Of a stretch of DNA of 64,000 bases, positions 2,792-63,505 are shown piece by piece. Source of the stretch: Candidatus Eremiobacteraceae bacterium. Its GTDB lineage: Bacteria > Vulcanimicrobiota > Vulcanimicrobiia > Eremiobacterales > Eremiobacteraceae. Position numbers and translations under genes: made by a program. Within the stretch, counting starts at the first letter, position 1; each line of letters starts with the position of its first letter. The stretch spans positions 1-64,000 of the forward strand of contig DATFYX010000044.1 of assembly GCA_035314825.1 (NCBI GenBank), read 5' to 3'. The notes beneath the pieces are model-generated. The model saw only the letters and a list, made by a program, of their open reading frames with translations, made no database searches and was not told where the DNA came from.

Positions 2792-4246
2792 CTACTTGTG
2801 CCCCTTGACCTGTGCTTCCGTGACGGGCGAAGCTTTGTTGCCCCACGACGTGCGGATGTAGGTGATCACCGCTGCGATCTGCGCATCGGTCAGCTTGCCG
2901 TGCCACGAGGGCATGGCGCCGTTGAACGTCTGGCCGTTGACCTTGATCTGGCCGTGCAGGCCGTTCGCGACGATGCCGATGACGGCGCCGGCATCACCTG
3001 TCACCGCCGGATTGCCGGCCAGCGCCGGAAACGCGCCGGCAAGGCCTTGGCCGCTCGCGCCGTGACAGCTCGCGCAATTGGTGCCGTAGACGGCAGAGCC
3101 GTCAGGGCCCGCCGCGGCGCTCGCACCGGGCGACGGTGACGGCGTCGCCGGCATCGCACCGAGCCCGGCGACCGGCGTCAAACCAGCTGGACTTGCTTTG
3201 CGCTCCGCATCGATCGCCTTGGCCGAGTACATGCTCAGTCCGACGATCGTGATGATCGTCAACGCGGTGACGCCCATCATGAACGGCCGTTTGGCGATCG
3301 CCCGGCTCGGATTGCGGTCGATCCACGGCAGCAGTAAGAGCACGAGCGAAAACACGCCGGGCAGGACGACCGTCGCGACCAGCGTGAGGACGCCCGCGGG
3401 CGCGAGCCGCAAGATGCCGTAGAGCGAGTAGAAATACCACGCCGGTGCCGGGATGAAGCCGCCAAAGTTCGGATCGGCTTTCGGCAGCAGCGGCGTCGGC
3501 ATGAAGATGGCGAGCCCAACGATGACCAGGAACGCGGTGAACGCGATGATAGAATCCATAAAGATCTGCTCGGGATAGAAATACCCGACAGTCTTCGGCT
3601 TCTCGTCCTGCGCCGGACCTGCCGGACCGTTGTGCCGGAAGATGAACAGGTGAAGACCGACTAGCCCCACGAGCAACGCGGGCGTCATCCAGACGTGGAT
3701 GCCGAAGAAGCGGCCGACGGTCAGCGTGCCGAGCGTCGAACCGTCGTTGAGGAAGCTCGCGATCTGCGGACCGATGACGGGCACGGTGGCGGCGATATTG
3801 ATGCCGACCTGGGTCGCGTAGTACGCATTGAGATCCCAGGGCAGCAGGTATCCGGTGAAGCCGAGGATGAGCGTGAAGAAGAACAGCGTGACGCCGACCA
3901 CCCACTGGATCTCGCGCGGGCGCTTGTAGGCCCCGAACACCAGGACTTGCAGCAAGTGGAGCGTCACCAGGATGATCATCGCCGACGCCCCCCAGTCGTG
4001 CAGGCTGATCATGAACTGGCCGAACGTCACATGCTCGTAGATGAATCTGGTCGATTCCCAAGCGGTGACCGACGACGGCGCATAGTAGAACGTGAGGAAG
4101 ATACCGGTCACGATCTGCATCGTCAGCAAGATGAGCGTCACGCTGCCGAAGACGTACCAGTAGCTGGCACCGCCGGGTATGTCCTCGGTGAGGGCCGCCT
4201 TGAGCGCCGAGACCAGACCGGTGCGTTGTTCGATCCAAGCTAACAT
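2792..4246 (-). CDS. Cytochrome b/b6 with C-terminal cytochrome c domain
   Basis: Quinol-oxidising subunit of a bc-type complex, inner membrane. The 484-residue protein has bis-heme ligands His83/His97 and His184/His199; the 15-residue spacing of the second pair is the b6-like pattern. A subunit-IV-like half follows, then a Pro/Ser/Ala linker (about 362-382) and a class I cytochrome c domain with CASCH at 391-395 and likely axial Met445. The quinol-site PEWY motif reads PAWY (268-271), so the usual catalytic glutamate is alanine. It lies 13 bp downstream of the Rieske gene in the same operon. The fusion removes the need for a separate cytochrome c1. Confidence 0.93.
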   Translation of the reverse strand: MLAWIEQRTGLVSALKAALTEDIPGGASYWYVFGSVTLILLTMQIVTGIFLTFYYAPSSVTAWESTRFIYEHVTFGQFMISLHDWGASAMIILVTLHLLQVLVFGAYKRPREIQWVVGVTLFFFTLILGFTGYLLPWDLNAYYATQVGINIAATVPVIGPQIASFLNDGSTLGTLTVGRFFGIHVWMTPALLVGLVGLHLFIFRHNGPAGPAQDEKPKTVGYFYPEQIFMDSIIAFTAFLVIVGLAIFMPTPLLPKADPNFGGFIPAPAWYFYSLYGILRLAPAGVLTLVATVVLPGVFSLVLLLLPWIDRNPSRAIAKRPFMMGVTALTIITIVGLSMYSAKAIDAERKASPAGLTPVAGLGAMPATPSPSPGASAAAGPDGSAVYGTNCASCHGASGQGLAGAFPALAGNPAVTGDAGAVIGIVANGLHGQIKVNGQTFNGAMPSWHGKLTDAQIAAVITYIRTSWGNKASPVTEAQVKGHK

Positions 4247-26181: not shown

Positions 26182-26489
26182 GCGCCGCTCTCCGGTGCCG
26201 CAGCAAATGACGCGACGGCCGGTCCGCTCGCCGAACGCGATCGAGTTGCGCGACGACCGCGGCGGGCTGCATCGTCGCCGCCTGCGCTAGGGTGAGACCC
26301 TGCCACGGCGCGCTGTCCGCAATGCGCTTCACAGGACCGCCAGCTTGAACGGTTGGCTTGCGAGCACCTCGGCCGCTCCCGATAAAAGGAAAGCTCCCGG
26401 TCGCCGGATATTCGTTCGCGATCCGCCGGGCCGGGAGCTGCGCGCCGCACCGCCGTCGTGCGGCGAGGTCGCGGGACTAAGGGGGTCTG
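26182..26489. other. Intergenic region holding hairpins, no gene
   Basis: I see no credible coding sequence. It contains the terminator of the respiratory operon (26384-26439), a second hairpin GCCGCAC/GTGCGGC (26444-26450 with 26458-26464), and the upstream region of the Acd/GNAT gene. No canonical -35/-10 pair stands out. Confidence 0.6.
26384..26439 (-). terminator. Rho-independent terminator of the respiratory operon
   Basis: On the minus strand AGCTCCCGG (26439-26431) pairs with CCGGGAGCT (26400-26392) around an inner stem GGCGGAT/ATCCGGC-like, followed directly by TTCCTTTTAT. It lies about 50 bp behind the stop of the Cyc2-like gene. Confidence 0.8.
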
Positions 26490-27677
26490 TTATCTAGACA
26501 GGCCCCTCATGTTGCCCAGCGTCGTATTCCACGTCAGCGACGCCTGCCAGCCGGGCGCGGTCGTTCCGCTCGCCATGCTGACCTCGCCGTTGAGCATCAG
26601 CGCATTGGCGTTCGCCGACGACACGCGCCGCGCGAGCATCACGCCGAGATTGACGTAGCCATAGTGGGTGACGGTGCCGAGCCCGTCGTTGGTCATCTCG
26701 TACCGCCCGCCCAACATCACCTTGCTGTCGAGGAACGGCTCGAAGACGTCGATGGTGTATCCGCTGCTGTTGGCAGGCCCGAATCCGGGCCCGGCATTCG
26801 AGTCGTGATTGCTTGCGTACATCGCGAACAGTCCCGGCACGTTGTGCTGTGAATCGATCTCGACGTATGGTGTGATCGACGTGTACTCATCGTAGGTGCC
26901 GTCGGACAGCGGCCACGAGCCGGCAGCGCCGTAGACGCCCGCCTCGACCGGCTTGTCGGGCCGGGCATATGCCACGCGATACTGAAACGTCTTGTCGGTC
27001 GGCGTCGTGAAGTCGAACGCGGTATTGAGATCTCCGCCGGGTCCGGTATACGCGCCCTCGATGAGATAGCCGGGACGCACGTAGCCGAACTTGTAGCCCC
27101 AACGGTTCGCATCGAGCTCATACACATGTTCTCCCACCGTCATTTCCGGCGGGGCGAACGGCGCGATCTCGAACCACTGGCTGAAGGGCGAGGGCGCGGG
27201 GACTTCCAGTTTGCCCACCGTGAAGTGGCCGTCCCGGTGCAGCAGATTGTTGTAAGTGAGCCATAGCGTATCCGTGCCGCCGGGCTCGTTGCCCTGCACG
27301 ATCCATTGCTGGGCGTGCACGGTGACGTCGCTGCCGATATACCCAGCGGCTTGGATGTTCAGATTTCCGAACAGGACCTTACCGGGGAACGTGGGGTCCT
27401 GCGTGTCGACGGCGGCTGCTGCTTGGACCCACAGCGGGTTGACGCCGTGTATGACGCTCGGATCCAGCGATGCATAGCCCGTGCGCTGTACGTACCGCCC
27501 GTAGTCGTTCAGCGCCGGGACGTTGGAATGGCATACCTCGCAGTTGATGCCGTACGCCTGTGCGAAGGGCGGCATGGCTTGGGTCGGCCGCACGCTCTCG
27601 ATCACGAAAGCGACCGCGAGCGCCGCGCCGACGATGAGAACCGTCGCCTTGACGGTCCCCCGGATATGCGCCTTCAC
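26490..27677 (-). CDS. Cyc2-like fused monoheme cytochrome / outer-membrane barrel protein
   Basis: 395 residues. A signal peptide (about 1-34) leads to a single heme motif Cys46-x-x-Cys49-His50 inside PPFAQAYGINCEVCH, followed by NVPALNDYGRYVQRTGY and then about 320 residues of alternating, aromatic-rich strands typical of a porin barrel. This order and the residues around the heme (FA-x3-G-x2-CxxCH-x3-P-x-L-x2-[FY]G) resemble Cyc2, the fused porin-cytochrome of iron oxidisers. No C-terminal aromatic residue is present. It overlaps the CuA gene (ATGA) and ends the ba3 oxidase operon. Donor unknown; iron oxidation is a hypothesis. Confidence 0.78.
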   Translation of the reverse strand: MKAHIRGTVKATVLIVGAALAVAFVIESVRPTQAMPPFAQAYGINCEVCHSNVPALNDYGRYVQRTGYASLDPSVIHGVNPLWVQAAAAVDTQDPTFPGKVLFGNLNIQAAGYIGSDVTVHAQQWIVQGNEPGGTDTLWLTYNNLLHRDGHFTVGKLEVPAPSPFSQWFEIAPFAPPEMTVGEHVYELDANRWGYKFGYVRPGYLIEGAYTGPGGDLNTAFDFTTPTDKTFQYRVAYARPDKPVEAGVYGAAGSWPLSDGTYDEYTSITPYVEIDSQHNVPGLFAMYASNHDSNAGPGFGPANSSGYTIDVFEPFLDSKVMLGGRYEMTNDGLGTVTHYGYVNLGVMLARRVSSANANALMLNGEVSMASGTTAPGWQASLTWNTTLGNMRGLSR

Positions 27678-28030
27678 GGCTTGACCACGATGGTCAGCAC
27701 CATATCGCCGTGACCGCTACCGCACGGAATCGTGCAGTGGATCACGTAGGTGCCCGCCTTCTTCGGCGTGACGCTGACGTCGACGAACTCGCCCGGTTTG
27801 ATGACGGTCTGCGGAATGCCGAGATCGTCGGACTGGATGCCGTGGACGCCGCCGCTCGAGGTCATGTGCATAACGGTCGTCTCACCGACATGCATCTCGA
27901 CCGTCGCCGGCGTGAACTTCCAGTTCGCCGCGACGACGTCGACCGTGGGATGCGCGAAAGCCGGCGCGGCGATCATGAGAACGGCAAAGCCGGCTAATGC
28001 CGCGAGGTGCCGTGAAATCGAAAAAGCCAT
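27674..28030 (-). CDS. Secreted single-domain CuA cupredoxin
   Basis: 118 residues: signal peptide ending in APAFA, then one cupredoxin domain with the full CuA ligand set His63, Cys99, Cys103, His107, Met110 (C-x3-C-x3-H-x2-M). It has no membrane anchor, unlike oxidase subunit II. A strong AGGAGGT site precedes the ATG at 28030. It lies between coxA and the Cyc2-like gene and overlaps the latter, so it is a good candidate for a periplasmic electron shuttle between the two. A copper chaperone or nitrosocyanin-like role is the alternative. Confidence 0.86.
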   Translation of the reverse strand: MAFSISRHLAALAGFAVLMIAAPAFAHPTVDVVAANWKFTPATVEMHVGETTVMHMTSSGGVHGIQSDDLGIPQTVIKPGEFVDVSVTPKKAGTYVIHCTIPCGSGHGDMVLTIVVKP

Positions 28031-28055
28031 GACAGGTACCTCCTAGAGCGTATTC

Positions 28056-28114
28056 TCACAGACCGGGGTGGCGGGCCGATGAGCGGGGCGTGAAGTGGGT
28101 GGGAAGGTCTGTGA
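28056..28114 (-). promoter_or_regulatory. Long-range inverted repeat between coxA and the CuA gene
   Basis: TCACAGACC (28056-28064) and GGTCTGTGA (28106-28114) are perfect 9-bp arms around 41 bp, filling most of the 130-bp gap. It could be an RNA processing stem that separates coxA from the CuA/Cyc2-like message or a protein binding site. No T-run follows on the minus strand. Confidence 0.5.
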
Positions 28115-28160
28115 AGGCTGCGACAAACGACATATTACGGGACAGCGTACGAGCAGGCGC

Positions 28161-29789
28161 TCACCAGGTCCGCAGGCCGGGCGCTCCATATGGGTGCGCC
28201 GCGATGAGTTCGTGGATCGGCCCGATATAGGCCAGCACCGCGAGGACGACCGCGGCGGCCGCCCACGCGCCGATGTTGTCCAAGTACGCCGGCGTCGGCA
28301 TCGCCTCGGGCTCGGCCTGCGCGAACTCCACCGCGGTGTCGCCCGGCTCGTTGCTTAGCCGCGTGCCGATCGCGACGGTCGCGAACATCAGGATGCTGAT
28401 GAAGAGAATGACCCCGCCGACGGCGGCTGCGATCATCTCCGGCTGCCACGAGTGCGCGGCCGCCACGCCGAAATACGAGACGTTGTCGGTGCGGCGCGGC
28501 GAGCCCAAGATGCCCGCCCAGTGCATGCCGGTCGACATGATCGCCATGCCGATGAACCATGCCCAGACCTGCGCGAGCGCCAGTTTTGGCGCCCACAGCT
28601 TGCGGCCGGTCAGCGCGGGCACGAGCCAGTAAGCGATGCCGACGAACGAGAGGGCTACCGGACCGCCGACCGTCACGTGGAAGTGGCCGACGATCCACAT
28701 CGTGTTGTGCACCAGCGTGTCCAGGCTATACGACGCGTTGACGATGCCGCCGGCGCCGCCGAAGATGAACAGCACCATCGCCAGCGCCGGACCGGCGAAC
28801 GCCGGATTGCCCCACGGCAGCGAGCGGATGACGCCCAAGAACCCGGATTGGCCTTTGCGGCGCGCGGCCATCTCGAATGAGGCGAAGATCGCGAACGCCG
28901 TCATGATCGACGGGATGACGACGCCATAGGTCGTCATCGTATGGACCCACTTCCAGCCCGCCGAGATGCCGGGCTCCATGAACTCGTGATGGATGCCGAC
29001 CGGCGTGGACAGGATGAGGAGCAACAGGAACGCGAGCCGCGTCAGCGAGTCGCTGAACACCTTGCCGCCATAGAACACGGGCACGACGTTGTACCAGATC
29101 AGATACGCGCCCATGATCCAGAAATACACCAGCGGGTGGCCGAAGTACCAGAACAGCATGCGCGTCATCATCACGTCGACCGTGGGCACCCAGCCAAGCG
29201 ACCACGGGATGAGATAGAACAGCATTTCGGTCGCGACGCCGATGGTGGCGATGAACCACATGGCAAAGGTGCATGCGACGCCGTGCACGACCAGCGGCAG
29301 CCGTTCGCCTGGATGCGTGCGCCGGAAATAGATGATGTTCTCGAAGATCTCGGCCAGCACGAACCACGTCGCGATAACCAGCAGCGTGGCGCCGATATAG
29401 AAGGCCGGATGCGCCTTGAGGGGCGCATAGAACGTGTAGAGCACGGACGCGTTGCCGGACAAGATCGCCCAGGTCGCCATCAGCGTGCCGAACAGCATCA
29501 GCGCGAAGCCGGACCAGCCCAGCGTCAGCGAACGGTCGCGCGGCACCGCGCGGTAGACCATGAACAGCGACAGCCCGCAGATGAAGAACGTCGTGAACAC
29601 GATGGCCATGAGCACGCCGTGCGCCGTGAGCATGCGATAGTAATCGAACCAGGCCGGCGCGACGAAGGCCTGCGCGCGCGAAAGCGCCTGGAGCACGCCG
29701 AAGATCGCGCCGACCACAATCGCGCCGGTCGCGGTGTAGACATAGGCGAGGGAGAGGCCGTTCTCGCGCGCCACCTGCGTCACCGCCAT
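28161..29789 (-). CDS. Cytochrome c oxidase subunit I, ba3 (B) type
   Basis: 542 residues, about 13 transmembrane helices. Low-spin heme His in MLTAHGVLMA, CuB/Tyr segment FGHPLVYFW, the HH pair in VGIHHEFMEPG and the GHFHVTVGG heme ligands are all present. The overall form is that of B-family (ba3) oxidases, which have one main proton channel and high oxygen affinity. Only 1 bp from coxB; last of the classic oxidase genes before the CuA gene. Confidence 0.95.
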   Translation of the reverse strand: MAVTQVARENGLSLAYVYTATGAIVVGAIFGVLQALSRAQAFVAPAWFDYYRMLTAHGVLMAIVFTTFFICGLSLFMVYRAVPRDRSLTLGWSGFALMLFGTLMATWAILSGNASVLYTFYAPLKAHPAFYIGATLLVIATWFVLAEIFENIIYFRRTHPGERLPLVVHGVACTFAMWFIATIGVATEMLFYLIPWSLGWVPTVDVMMTRMLFWYFGHPLVYFWIMGAYLIWYNVVPVFYGGKVFSDSLTRLAFLLLLILSTPVGIHHEFMEPGISAGWKWVHTMTTYGVVIPSIMTAFAIFASFEMAARRKGQSGFLGVIRSLPWGNPAFAGPALAMVLFIFGGAGGIVNASYSLDTLVHNTMWIVGHFHVTVGGPVALSFVGIAYWLVPALTGRKLWAPKLALAQVWAWFIGMAIMSTGMHWAGILGSPRRTDNVSYFGVAAAHSWQPEMIAAAVGGVILFISILMFATVAIGTRLSNEPGDTAVEFAQAEPEAMPTPAYLDNIGAWAAAAVVLAVLAYIGPIHELIAAHPYGAPGLRTW

Positions 29790-29790
29790 G

Positions 29791-30258
29791 TCATTGGACC
29801 TCGATCGTGCCGTACATGAAATGATGGTCCAAACCGCAGTACTCGTTGCACAGCAGCAGATACTGGCCGGGTGTGCGGAACACGTGGGTCGACGTGCTCA
29901 CCCAACCGGGCACGACCAGCATGTTGACGTCGGTGTTGGTGATGAAGAAACCGTGGACCACGTCTGGACTGGTGGCGAAAAAGGTGACCTTGGCGCCCGC
30001 CGGCACGGTTATCTGGTGCGGCGTGAACGCCGGATAGCGCGCGATGACGTAGGCCTCATACTCGTTGGGGCCGATCTTGCGCAGGCCGGGATTGTCGAAC
30101 GGCGGCGTCTGCGCCACCTTGGTCGGATCGATGGTCTGGACATGGCTGGGCGGCAGGATGCCTTCGCTGATCGCCGCGGTGCCGATGATGCCCAGGAACA
30201 CGATAAGCGCGGTGATCCCGAAGATCAGCCAGATGCGCTCGAGGCGGTCGATGTGCAC
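29791..30258 (-). CDS. Cytochrome c oxidase subunit II, ba3 type
   Basis: 155 residues: one N-terminal transmembrane helix (about 8-32) and a cupredoxin domain with CuA ligands His102, Cys137, Cys141, His145, Met148. The short single-anchor form matches ba3-type subunit II. GTG at 30258 starts directly behind the small upstream gene. It takes electrons from a soluble donor, possibly the free CuA protein of the same operon. Confidence 0.95.
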   Translation of the reverse strand: MHIDRLERIWLIFGITALIVFLGIIGTAAISEGILPPSHVQTIDPTKVAQTPPFDNPGLRKIGPNEYEAYVIARYPAFTPHQITVPAGAKVTFFATSPDVVHGFFITNTDVNMLVVPGWVSTSTHVFRTPGQYLLLCNEYCGLDHHFMYGTIEVQ

Positions 30259-30259
30259 G

Positions 30260-30379
30260 TCACCACCGGCTCGTCATCAAGGCCCACATCAGCGCCCAGA
30301 CGACGACCAAGAAAATACCAAGACCGGTCAGGAATAGAGCGGTTGCCGGGAGCGGCTCATCCTCGTGTTTGTCGCTCAT
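30260..30379 (-). CDS. Small single-helix peptide, oxidase subunit IIa-like
   Basis: 39 residues: acidic N-terminus (MSDKHEDE) followed by one transmembrane helix (about 13-36). Size, position immediately before subunit II (1 bp apart) and single helix match the subunit IIa/CbaD peptides of ba3 oxidases, which complete the missing helix of subunit II. First gene of the operon. Confidence 0.8.
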   Translation of the reverse strand: MSDKHEDEPLPATALFLTGLGIFLVVVWALMWALMTSRW

Positions 30380-30432: not shown

Positions 30433-32268
30433 TTAGCTTCGGAGCGCGGCCCCGCCTGCGGCCTCGCGCAGGCGTGCACCCTCGACGGCGACGCTGGCGA
30501 GCTGGGCGAAGACCTCGATGGTACGGATGGTCGCTTCGTCCGGAACCTTGTGATCGCGCGGCTCGTCCGGCGACAAGACGCCGATGAGCGTCCCGTCGGA
30601 GTCGAAGAACGGGAAGATGAGCAGGTCGTCCTCGTGCCACTCGCCCGGCGCGCTGCGCGGCAGCTGCGAAAGCTGCGGATTGCGTACTACGCCGCCCCCG
30701 ACGTGCAATTCCATCGGCGTGTAGTAGTACGTGTCGCGGATGCGCGCGCGTGGGGACATGGACGCGTGCAGCTCCGCCTCCGAGATCTCTTTTCCGACCA
30801 CGCTGTCCGGATAGCCTAGCGCTGCCCGGCGCACGAAGACGTTGCGCGTCGGGTCGCGCAGCACGATGGTACCGGCGGTGAAGTTGAATTGGCCCACGGC
30901 GACTTCGAGGATGCGCCGCAGCATGCGATCCAGGTCGCGCTCTTTGAAGATCGCGGCGGTGAGGTCCAAGATGCTGCCCAAGCGCGCGGCTTGTTTGCGT
31001 CGCCCTTCGGCGGCCAGCTCTGCCTCGCGGTAGAGGCGCTGGATCTCGCGATTGGTCTCGGTCAGCTCTTCGGCGCGCCGCTGCTCGGTCGTGAAGAGGT
31101 GGACGTTCTCGATGGCGGCCGCGGCCAGATGCGCGAAGAGCGCCACGTTGTCGATGGTCGTCTTCGAGGGCACGCGGTTGTCGGCCGGCGCATCCGGCAC
31201 GAGCAGGCCGATCACATCGCCCGACGAGGAATGGAGCTGGAAGATGAGCGTGTCGGATTCGTTCCATTCGTCCTGGCGACTGCGCGGCTCGCCCAGGCGC
31301 TCGTGATCGTAGACCAGCGCGGGATCGGTGTACCAGGTCTGCTCTTCGACCGGCGCATAGAACACCCAGTGGCGCACGGCAAAGCGCTTGTCCATCTTCA
31401 ACTGCGCCTGTGCGAACGCGACTTCGCGATGGCGCAGCGTCAGCTCGATGTTAGGCGCGTAGCCGCGCACCGCGCTGTACCGATACGTCTCGCGGTCGCG
31501 GTCGGCGACGAGAATGGAGCCGGCACGGAAACCGAACGCCTTGATCGCCGCTTCAAGAATGCGGTCGAGCAGCATCGAGAGCTCGCGTTCGCGCATCAGC
31601 GTGACGCTCAGCTCGACGACTTTGCGCAGGGTGCTGGCCTGCGCCCGGGTCTCCGCGAGCATCGCCTCTTCTACTTGCGCGGCGCGCGACAGCTCTTCGC
31701 TGCGCTTGGCGAGCGCTTGATTGCGCTCGTCGATCTCGCGCACGAGCAGGCCCACGTTGAGGACATTGAGCCATAGCACGGCGATCTGGAAGAAGAGATT
31801 GCCGACGCCCGTGACGTCGGATGCCGGCACGATGTGCGCGGCGTGGCCGATGATGATGACCAGCGTTCCGCCGGCACCCGAGATGAGTGCGCCGGTGTAG
31901 CGTTCCCGGGCCGCGGCGATCGCGGTGAAGATGACCAAGCCGACCCAAGTTGCCGGGAAGATGGACTCGTAGGCGAGGACCACAGCCGACAGCGCGATGA
32001 AGTCGATGATCAGCAGCGACCGCGCTGTCCAGCGGATGACGGTCACGCTGCGCGCGCGCGCGTTGATGTAATAGGCGATCAGACTGGCGAGCAGCCATAC
32101 GACGATCGCCGTCGGGCGCACCCACGACGGATGGGACTCAGGCAGCGACGCGCCCACCGCCGCGGCGATGAACACCGTGATGAGGCGAACGCGCAGAAGG
32201 CTGGTCTCAGCCGCGCGTTCCTGTTCCAAAGACGGTCGAGCCGGTGTGTATTCCATCGTTGCGAACAC
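30433..32268 (-). CDS. Membrane protein with two GAF domains and no output domain
   Basis: 611 residues: about five transmembrane helices (35-195), a coiled-coil linker, a GAF domain (about 220-385), a second coiled coil and a second GAF domain (about 425-600). No kinase, cyclase or DNA-binding domain follows, so it must act on a partner or be a truncated sensor. It lies 53 bp upstream of the ba3 oxidase operon on the same strand and could sense redox state, oxygen or light for it. ATG 32268 is used; ATG 32256 is possible. Confidence 0.8.
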   Translation of the reverse strand: MFATMEYTPARPSLEQERAAETSLLRVRLITVFIAAAVGASLPESHPSWVRPTAIVVWLLASLIAYYINARARSVTVIRWTARSLLIIDFIALSAVVLAYESIFPATWVGLVIFTAIAAARERYTGALISGAGGTLVIIIGHAAHIVPASDVTGVGNLFFQIAVLWLNVLNVGLLVREIDERNQALAKRSEELSRAAQVEEAMLAETRAQASTLRKVVELSVTLMRERELSMLLDRILEAAIKAFGFRAGSILVADRDRETYRYSAVRGYAPNIELTLRHREVAFAQAQLKMDKRFAVRHWVFYAPVEEQTWYTDPALVYDHERLGEPRSRQDEWNESDTLIFQLHSSSGDVIGLLVPDAPADNRVPSKTTIDNVALFAHLAAAAIENVHLFTTEQRRAEELTETNREIQRLYREAELAAEGRRKQAARLGSILDLTAAIFKERDLDRMLRRILEVAVGQFNFTAGTIVLRDPTRNVFVRRAALGYPDSVVGKEISEAELHASMSPRARIRDTYYYTPMELHVGGGVVRNPQLSQLPRSAPGEWHEDDLLIFPFFDSDGTLIGVLSPDEPRDHKVPDEATIRTIEVFAQLASVAVEGARLREAAGGAALRS

Positions 32269-62407: not shown

Positions 62408-63505
62408 ATGAAGGCGTTCCACCTGGCGCTGCTGATATGCGGCGCCGCAATGATGTTTCCGTCTCAATCGTCCGCGCTGCCGGTGTTCGCGCACCGCTAT
62501 GGTCTGACGTGCGAGGCATGCCATACGACCGTGCCTCACCTCAACGCCTTTGGCGCCGCGTTCTTGCGCGACGGCTTCCGGCCGCCGCCGGGCCTCCCGC
62601 TTGCGCCCGACGTCTTCCCGATCGCGCTCAAGGTCAATCTGCAGTACTCGAGCGAGCCGGACCCCAACGGCTTGCCTAAGGCGATCGTCGACGAGGTCGA
62701 GCTGCTAGCATCGGGCCCGGTCACGCCGCATGTCTCATATCGGCTCGAGCAATACATGGTCGATGGCGGCGAGCCCGGCCTCACCCGCGACGCGTGGCTG
62801 GAGTTCCTGAGCCGCCCGGCGTTCGGCGACACCGGATCGGCGTTGCGCGTCACCGCCGGCCAATTCACACTGCCGCTACCCGTCGATCCCGAGACGCAGC
62901 GCGAGACGATCAACCATTATCAGATCTTCGATCAGAAGGTCGGCGACGATCCCTTCGATTTCTTCAACGACGGGATGGGGATCGACATCGCCTACGGGCG
63001 CGAGACGGATGGCACGGTGGTCCATCTGATGGCGCTCAAGGGGCACGACCCGCAGTCGGGATTGCCGACGTCGGGCGTCGACTCAGACGCGTACGCGCAG
63101 ACGGGCGGCAAGACCGCCGTGTTCTCAGCGTATTACCACAGCGGCACGAGGCGCTTCGGCTCGGTCCTCGACCTCTTCAATAGACAAGGGCTGGGCGCCG
63201 ATCTCTTCATCGGCAAGGCGGAGGCCGATATCGTGGTGCAACAAGGCTTCGATAGCGCGGCGAATGCTGCGGGCGCTGCGGCGCGCAGTTCGGGCGGATT
63301 CGCACAAGTGCGCTGGGCCTTTTCGCCCGCCCTGACCGCGCTGTCGCGCTACGACAGCACCTACGATCCGTTCGCAGGCCTACAGCAATCGCTGACGACG
63401 ACACTGGTCATGAGGGTGCGGCGCAACGCCAAGGTCACTGTCGAAGACGTGTCAGCCGGCCATGGACATCAGACCTTCAACGCGGCGTTCCTGTTCGCGT
63501 ACTGA
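62408..63505 (+). CDS. Second Cyc2-like fused monoheme cytochrome / outer-membrane barrel protein
   Basis: 365 residues. Signal peptide (1-23), heme motif Cys35-x-x-Cys38-His39 in PVFAHRYGLTCEACH, then TVPHLNAFGAAFLRDGF and a barrel-like remainder ending in FNAAFLFAY, the aromatic C-terminus expected of outer-membrane barrels. It shares the N-terminal pattern with the protein at 26490-27677 although the barrels differ, so these are paralogues or swapped barrels. Start ATG 62408 follows AGGG. Candidate extracellular electron donor port, regulated by the TTAGG island upstream. Confidence 0.78.
   Translation: MKAFHLALLICGAAMMFPSQSSALPVFAHRYGLTCEACHTTVPHLNAFGAAFLRDGFRPPPGLPLAPDVFPIALKVNLQYSSEPDPNGLPKAIVDEVELLASGPVTPHVSYRLEQYMVDGGEPGLTRDAWLEFLSRPAFGDTGSALRVTAGQFTLPLPVDPETQRETINHYQIFDQKVGDDPFDFFNDGMGIDIAYGRETDGTVVHLMALKGHDPQSGLPTSGVDSDAYAQTGGKTAVFSAYYHSGTRRFGSVLDLFNRQGLGADLFIGKAEADIVVQQGFDSAANAAGAAARSSGGFAQVRWAFSPALTALSRYDSTYDPFAGLQQSLTTTLVMRVRRNAKVTVEDVSAGHGHQTFNAAFLFAY

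Follow-up and report, generated by a model that had tools for sequence, protein, structure and literature searches.

A Secreted CuA Protein Paired with a Cyc2-like Heme Barrel near a ba3-Type Oxidase in Candidatus Eremiobacterota Suggests a Copper-Based Electron Carrier

Gene Organization of the Operon

The DNA analyzed here, referred to as the window, is a 64,000-nucleotide stretch from a Candidatus Eremiobacterota (Vulcanimicrobiota) genome of 2.55 Mb that is 97% complete. ORF calls and the sequence place an operon of five minus-strand genes at positions 26490-30379. Its features, in gene order, are the following:

30260-30379, minus strand: subunit IIa-like peptide, 39 aa, single helix (sequence MSDKHEDEPLPATALFLTGLGIFLVVVWALMWALMTSRW); homologues lie immediately ahead of CoxB in relatives
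29791-30258, minus strand: CoxB, ba3-type subunit II with a CuA domain, 155 aa (PF00116, 2.5e-9; Thermus thermophilus ba3 subunit II, 5e-39)
28161-29789, minus strand: CoxA, ba3-type subunit I, 542 aa (PF00115, 1.6e-88; 1ehk_A, 2e-122)
28031-28160, minus strand: 130-bp gap between the CoxA and CuA genes, with AGGAGGT before the CuA start (sequence)
27674-28030, minus strand: free CuA protein, 118 aa, signal peptide and one CuA-type cupredoxin domain (Cupredoxin_1, 5.1e-11)
26490-27677, minus strand: Cyc2-like fused cytochrome-porin, 395 aa, GTG start (AlphaFold, Foldseek, HHalign)
26381-26439, minus strand: possible intrinsic terminator, 9-bp inverted repeat AGCTCCCGG/CCGGGAGCT with a T-rich tail (fold z -1.36 versus shuffles)

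The IIa/CoxB and CoxB/CoxA junctions are each 1 bp, and the GTG start of the barrel gene overlaps the stop codon region of the CuA gene by 4 bp. An earlier note on this DNA had described five minus-strand genes with junctions of 1-4 bp and one 130-bp gap, and all of them lie where it had placed them. The gap carries a perfect AGGAGGT ahead of the CuA gene and shows no notable fold (z +0.98). The note had also closed the operon with a strong terminator, which was not upheld: the repeat and the T-rich tail are present, but the fold z-score is not exceptional, and a consensus scan of the region gives just a weak 5-bp stem. A terminator at this site is possible and plausible, if statistically unremarkable. 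Directly upstream of the operon is a gene for a GAF-domain protein (30433-32268, minus strand), a position that is kept in two genomes of the same genus.

The identities proposed for CoxB and CoxA were borne out by Pfam and by matches to the T. thermophilus ba3 oxidase, and that of the IIa-like peptide by its sequence and by the place of its homologues in relatives. The best PDB match of CoxA, 1ehk_A from that enzyme, is followed by 7deg, and A-type oxidases match far more weakly. In CoxB, the CuA ligands are found in the loop CNEYCGLDHHFM and in the histidine of VVHGF. With both large subunits nearest to those of Thermus and a short IIa subunit beside them, the oxidase is of the ba3 type (B family). 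The Thermus ba3 oxidase receives its electrons from cytochrome c552. The host genome encodes a second oxidase, of the caa3 type, whose CoxB carries a fused cytochrome c. Elsewhere in the window, a cytochrome b with a fused C-terminal cytochrome c domain is encoded at 2792-4246 on the minus strand.

The Free CuA Protein

CuA centers have been described mainly as integral parts of oxidases and N2O reductase, where they admit electrons to the enzyme. The protein encoded after CoxA is a single secreted domain. In the PDB, it is matched best by the CuA domain of T. thermophilus ba3 or variants of that domain (2e-10), and its signal peptide, read by inspection, ends at AFA, ahead of HP. The ligand pattern of a CuA domain (H, C-x3-C, H, M) is complete, as the earlier note had claimed, and the five residues concerned (H63, C99, C103, H107, and M110) are invariant in an alignment of 40/40 homologues. 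Between the two cysteines, a hydrophobic residue stands where CoxB has a glutamate; this CuA-loop glutamate ligates via its backbone.

A profile scan of named genomes with the CuA alignment led to metagenome-assembled genomes (MAGs) of Candidatus Eremiobacterota / WPS-2 / Vulcanimicrobiota, several of them named for palsa and fen sites. Relatives outside Eremiobacterota (Alicyclobacillus, L118, and others) are weak, and no barrel adjoins them in the loci examined. Many free CuA paralogues stand as single genes. In one single-contig genome (G014), a free CuA gene lies 10 bp upstream of a gene for a sulfite-oxidase-family molybdoenzyme, which is followed by a COX1-family gene (L144:5416-7045). 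The genome that carries the operon also encodes a second CuA protein, fused to a copper amine oxidase N-terminal-like domain (L142:368-1117 on G000:C35; PF07833, 1e-34), and a similar architecture was judged from sequence at L162.

The Barrel Protein and Its Relation to Cyc2

Searches of Pfam, NCBIfam, and PDB with the barrel sequence gave nothing useful, one set of matches being viral capsid noise. An AlphaFold model built with 42 homologues opens with a short helical CxxCH domain and continues into a barrel of exactly 16 strands (pLDDT 83.7, pTM 0.81), the strand number that the earlier note had asked to see predicted. Foldseek with this model returned 16-strand porins, including OprO (4rjw) and OprP (2o4v), which are the templates reported for Cyc2 (PMC8406198). 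The N-terminus is hydrophobic by inspection, consistent with an export signal, and is followed by the single CxxCH that the note had seen, which is invariant in 42/42 homologues. The barrel and the membrane signal are thus both predicted, and homologues acting in another process, the remaining outcome set beforehand as counting against the proposal, were not encountered.

The published Cyc2 motif consists of AXPXFAR[Q/K][T/Y] before CXXCH and PXL after it (PMC8406198). The corresponding region of the barrel protein, AMPPFAQAYGINCEVCHSNVPAL, differs in the first part. It reads AMPPFAQAY, in which A, P, F, A, and Y agree, R is replaced by Q, and Q/K is replaced by A; an Acidithiobacillus plasmid Cyc2-like protein likewise lacks the arginine (AIPAFAAQT). 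The second part is present as CHSNVPAL, with P54 and L56 invariant. At 395 aa, the protein exceeds the Cyc2 minimum of 365 residues, and the model has the 16-strand porin fused to a heme domain that characterizes Cyc2. HHalign of the barrel family against a profile of six Cyc2-like proteobacterial plasmid proteins, rather than characterized Cyc2, gave 97.2% probability (E 4.2e-11, 255 columns). The six proteins come from Methylocystis, Caballeronia, Paraburkholderia, Ideonella, Acidithiobacillus, and Polymorphobacter. Because the exact published motif is absent, we did not assign the protein to Cyc2 in the strict sense and name it Cyc2-like. The Cyc2-like barrel of the earlier note thus stands as to its heme-porin plan and profile relation, but not as to the exact motif.

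A second Cyc2-like CxxCH barrel of 365 aa lies in the window at 62408-63505 on the plus strand (ALPVFAHRYG..CEACH..PHL), with no CuA gene among its neighbors in the stretch examined. For two other Cyc2-like genes (L073 and L166; WP_206366205.1 and WP_236721144.1), the public annotations begin past CxxCH, so the heme motif is absent from the annotated proteins.

Pairing of CuA with the Barrel across Genomes

The earlier note had called for a synteny search, and the pairing was recovered from both sides. CuA adjoins the barrel in 29/29 best loci and, in a wider set that overlaps the first in genomes, stands beside 38 of the 41 barrel genes (exceptions L064, L066, and L068). An independent search anchored on CuA found a barrel encoded either in the CuA ORF itself or no more than 1.2 kb away in 37/39 loci at an identity of at least 54%, a count that takes in one barrel 1.1 kb away (L085) and one on the opposite strand (L103); a barrel accompanied CuA in 0/4 more distant loci. 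Among genomes at least 90% complete, CuA occurs in 42/47 with the barrel versus 3/27 without it (Fisher p 1.5e-11, phylogeny ignored). To judge from these loci, the CuA and barrel genes form a conserved, class-wide unit within Eremiobacterota.

The association with the oxidase is weaker. In the same genome set, ba3 is present in 35/47 genomes with the barrel versus 12/27 without it (p 0.01, again ignoring phylogeny). On contigs that carry both ba3 and barrel, the two lie at most 6.4 kb apart in 23/27 genomes, in several orientations. No ba3 match (E 1e-60) was found in 12 of the 47 near-complete barrel-bearing genomes, indicating that the terminal oxidase of the chain can differ. Several loci that lack ba3 have the pair flanked by housekeeping genes, for example homologues of mutS and mutL, as identified by eye from sequence. 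The core unit is the CuA-barrel pair, with the ba3 oxidase often near and not obligatory.

Barrel and CuA also occur joined in one protein. In one clade (L099, L101, L056, and L057), the CuA domain is fused to the C-terminal side of the barrel; in a sister protein (L050), a cytochrome c domain occupies that same position (PF13442, 8.9e-14; clade support 100/100). An AlphaFold model of a natural fusion shows the barrel, a flexible linker (384-414), and the cupredoxin (419-507), with a pTM of 0.60 and the docking not fixed. A 654-aa paralogue in the operon's own genome (L072:13178-15142 on G000:C50) has two cytochrome c domains at this place, fused to a heme barrel, with Met-rich linkers. Among proteobacterial Cyc2-like relatives, a c-type cytochrome gene lies downstream in most and just upstream in Paraburkholderia, and HiPIP is sometimes also found beside these genes. 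That either CuA or cytochrome c occupies the same position or neighborhood of the barrel suggests that CuA fills the slot otherwise held by the periplasmic electron partner of such a barrel. This shared slot is the strongest argument for a CuA-barrel partnership, which is well supported because the pairs are class-wide and sometimes fused and because the barrel is profile-related to Cyc2-like proteins.

Proposed Electron Chain and Alternatives

We propose a mechanism on the basis of what was computed: the order of the genes, the identities of their domains, the conserved ligands, the fold of the barrel, the class-wide pairing, the fusions, and the cytochrome c/CuA exchange. Electrons from an extracellular donor, for which Fe(II) or some other reduced metal or mineral is the most plausible candidate, would enter at the outer-membrane barrel and reach the one c-type heme at its N-terminus, on its periplasmic face. 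From this heme, the secreted CuA protein would collect them, cross the periplasm, and hand them to the CuA center of CoxB, and the ba3 oxidase would reduce O2. The free CuA protein would thereby do the job of the c-type cytochromes, HiPIP, or rusticyanin of other Cyc2-type pathways. We infer the direction of flow, the identity of the donor, the CuA-to-CuA transfer, and the copper and heme occupancy. As a reading of this operon, a short electron-uptake chain of this kind is probable. Of the chain in the earlier note, from an external donor through free CuA to O2, the CuA-barrel partnership is supported by conserved pairs and fusions; its ba3 end can differ, to judge from the barrel genomes that lack a match.

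The cell context includes Omp85 and a c-type cytochrome assembly protein, both encoded by the host genome, and Vulcanimicrobium, the isolate of the phylum, grows at pH 4.5-8 and is enclosed by an outer membrane covered with LPS (PMC9758169). No RuBisCO match was found in the host genome, making iron-based autotrophy via the Calvin cycle unlikely. An ordinary CuA center has a potential of about +0.25 V. Such a value would suit near-neutral iron (about 0 mV) and not Fe(II) at pH 2 (770 mV) (PMC8406198). Cyc2-like Fe(II) oxidation has been proposed for one Eremiobacterota MAG, in passages that do not mention this operon (PMC8357290).

The absence of the exact Cyc2 motif leaves Fe(II) uncertain as the donor. 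That the same module draws on Mn(II), a mineral, humic substances, or another cell is quite possible, if short of an even chance; the motif, the missing RuBisCO match, the origin of the homologues in MAGs, several named for palsa or fen sites, and the lack of functional tests for many Cyc2 homologues (PMC8406198) all lean this way. The profile relation to Cyc2-like proteins of proteobacterial plasmids, including that of Acidithiobacillus, the 16-strand heme-porin plan shared with Cyc2, and the Fe(II) oxidation proposed for one Eremiobacterota MAG (PMC8357290) point back to iron. Direction is not readable from sequence alone, and single-heme porins could in principle run either way, so the module might instead export electrons to an external acceptor. 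We consider this very improbable, as Cyc2 runs in the uptake direction and the frequent linkage to an O2-reducing oxidase is sensible for uptake.

The resemblance of free CuA to the CoxB CuA domain, and its place next to cox genes in its own family, would also fit an assembly or copper-delivery factor for the oxidase CuA site, with the barrel a separate porin or copper-related protein. Such a role is improbable: the pair persists without a ba3 match, beside unrelated housekeeping genes, and fusions put the CuA domain on the barrel at the place where a sister protein has cytochrome c, an interchange not expected of a chaperone. A broader possibility extends the uptake chain without contradicting it, namely that CuA is a general periplasmic carrier of the phylum and the barrel one of several pairings. 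Many single-gene paralogues and the CuA gene ahead of the molybdoenzyme in G014 are consistent with this idea, but the barrel-linked CuA type is specifically tied, and sometimes fused, to the barrel, and we regard the broader role as somewhat unlikely. The chances seem about even that, throughout one Vulcanimicrobiota class, free CuA is the mobile carrier from cytochrome-porin to terminal oxidases, replacing cytochrome c and handing electrons on from CuA to CuA, and that further enzymes of the periplasm, a sulfite-oxidase-like molybdoenzyme for example, may be served by the same CuA family.

A heme-bearing outer-membrane pore paired or fused with a CuA protein suggests a copper protein carrying electrons inward toward oxygen, where other bacteria use cytochromes. 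If this is true, the secreted CuA shuttle would represent a respiratory carrier of a new class, the Cyc2-type uptake plan would tolerate carrier exchange, and a testable electron-uptake pathway would be at hand for a phylum that has been recovered from mine sites, peat, and soil and of which there are very few cultures. The CuA-barrel pair or fusion could serve as a marker for finding such a pathway.

Comparison with Known Systems

Uptake of the Cyc2 type is already known, as are the single-domain cupredoxins AcoP and rusticyanin near oxidases. The parts of the literature searched contain no description of Cyc2 paired with CuA, of a canonical-ligand CuA protein in a carrier role, or of a CuA-porin fusion; the earlier note's view that a CuA shuttle in place of cytochrome c or rusticyanin would be new thus met no precedent there.

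PmoD also has a CuA site outside oxidases and N2O reductase; however, that site arises in a homodimer from non-canonical ligands, and PmoD has a transmembrane helix (PMC6189053), features that set it apart from free CuA. AcoP/Cup, the green cupredoxin of Acidithiobacillus ferrooxidans, is likewise a single-domain cupredoxin encoded together with cyc2 and oxidase genes. It has 183 residues, one Cys ligand (H85, C159, H166, M171), and a transmembrane helix (PMC4059628), whereas free CuA has both CuA-loop cysteines invariant and, by inspection, a signal peptide rather than an anchor. An AcoP-type assignment, with a single-Cys mononuclear site and a transmembrane anchor, was therefore rejected.

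The T. thermophilus ba3 oxidase shares CoxA, CoxB, and the IIa-like subunit with this operon, and its CuA domain and variants are the best solved relatives of free CuA; the operon adds an extra free, secreted CuA copy. The Cyc2 proteins of Mariprofundus PV-1 and A. ferrooxidans share with the barrel a signal peptide, one CxxCH followed by PXL, a 16-strand porin, a length of at least 365 aa, and the OprO/OprP Foldseek matches, and differ from it in the AMPPFAQAY segment and in having a c-type cytochrome rather than CuA as the partner gene. For Cyc2 of Mariprofundus PV-1, Fe(II) oxidation accompanied by heme reduction has been shown. The rus operon of Acidithiobacillus, cyc2-cyc1-cup-coxBACD-rus (PMC10654088), similarly clusters the genes for an outer-membrane cytochrome-porin, a copper protein, and an oxidase. 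In contrast, cyc1, coxC, coxD, and rus are absent from the five genes described here, the oxidase is of the ba3 rather than the aa3 type, and the putative carrier is of the CuA type rather than a mononuclear copper protein.
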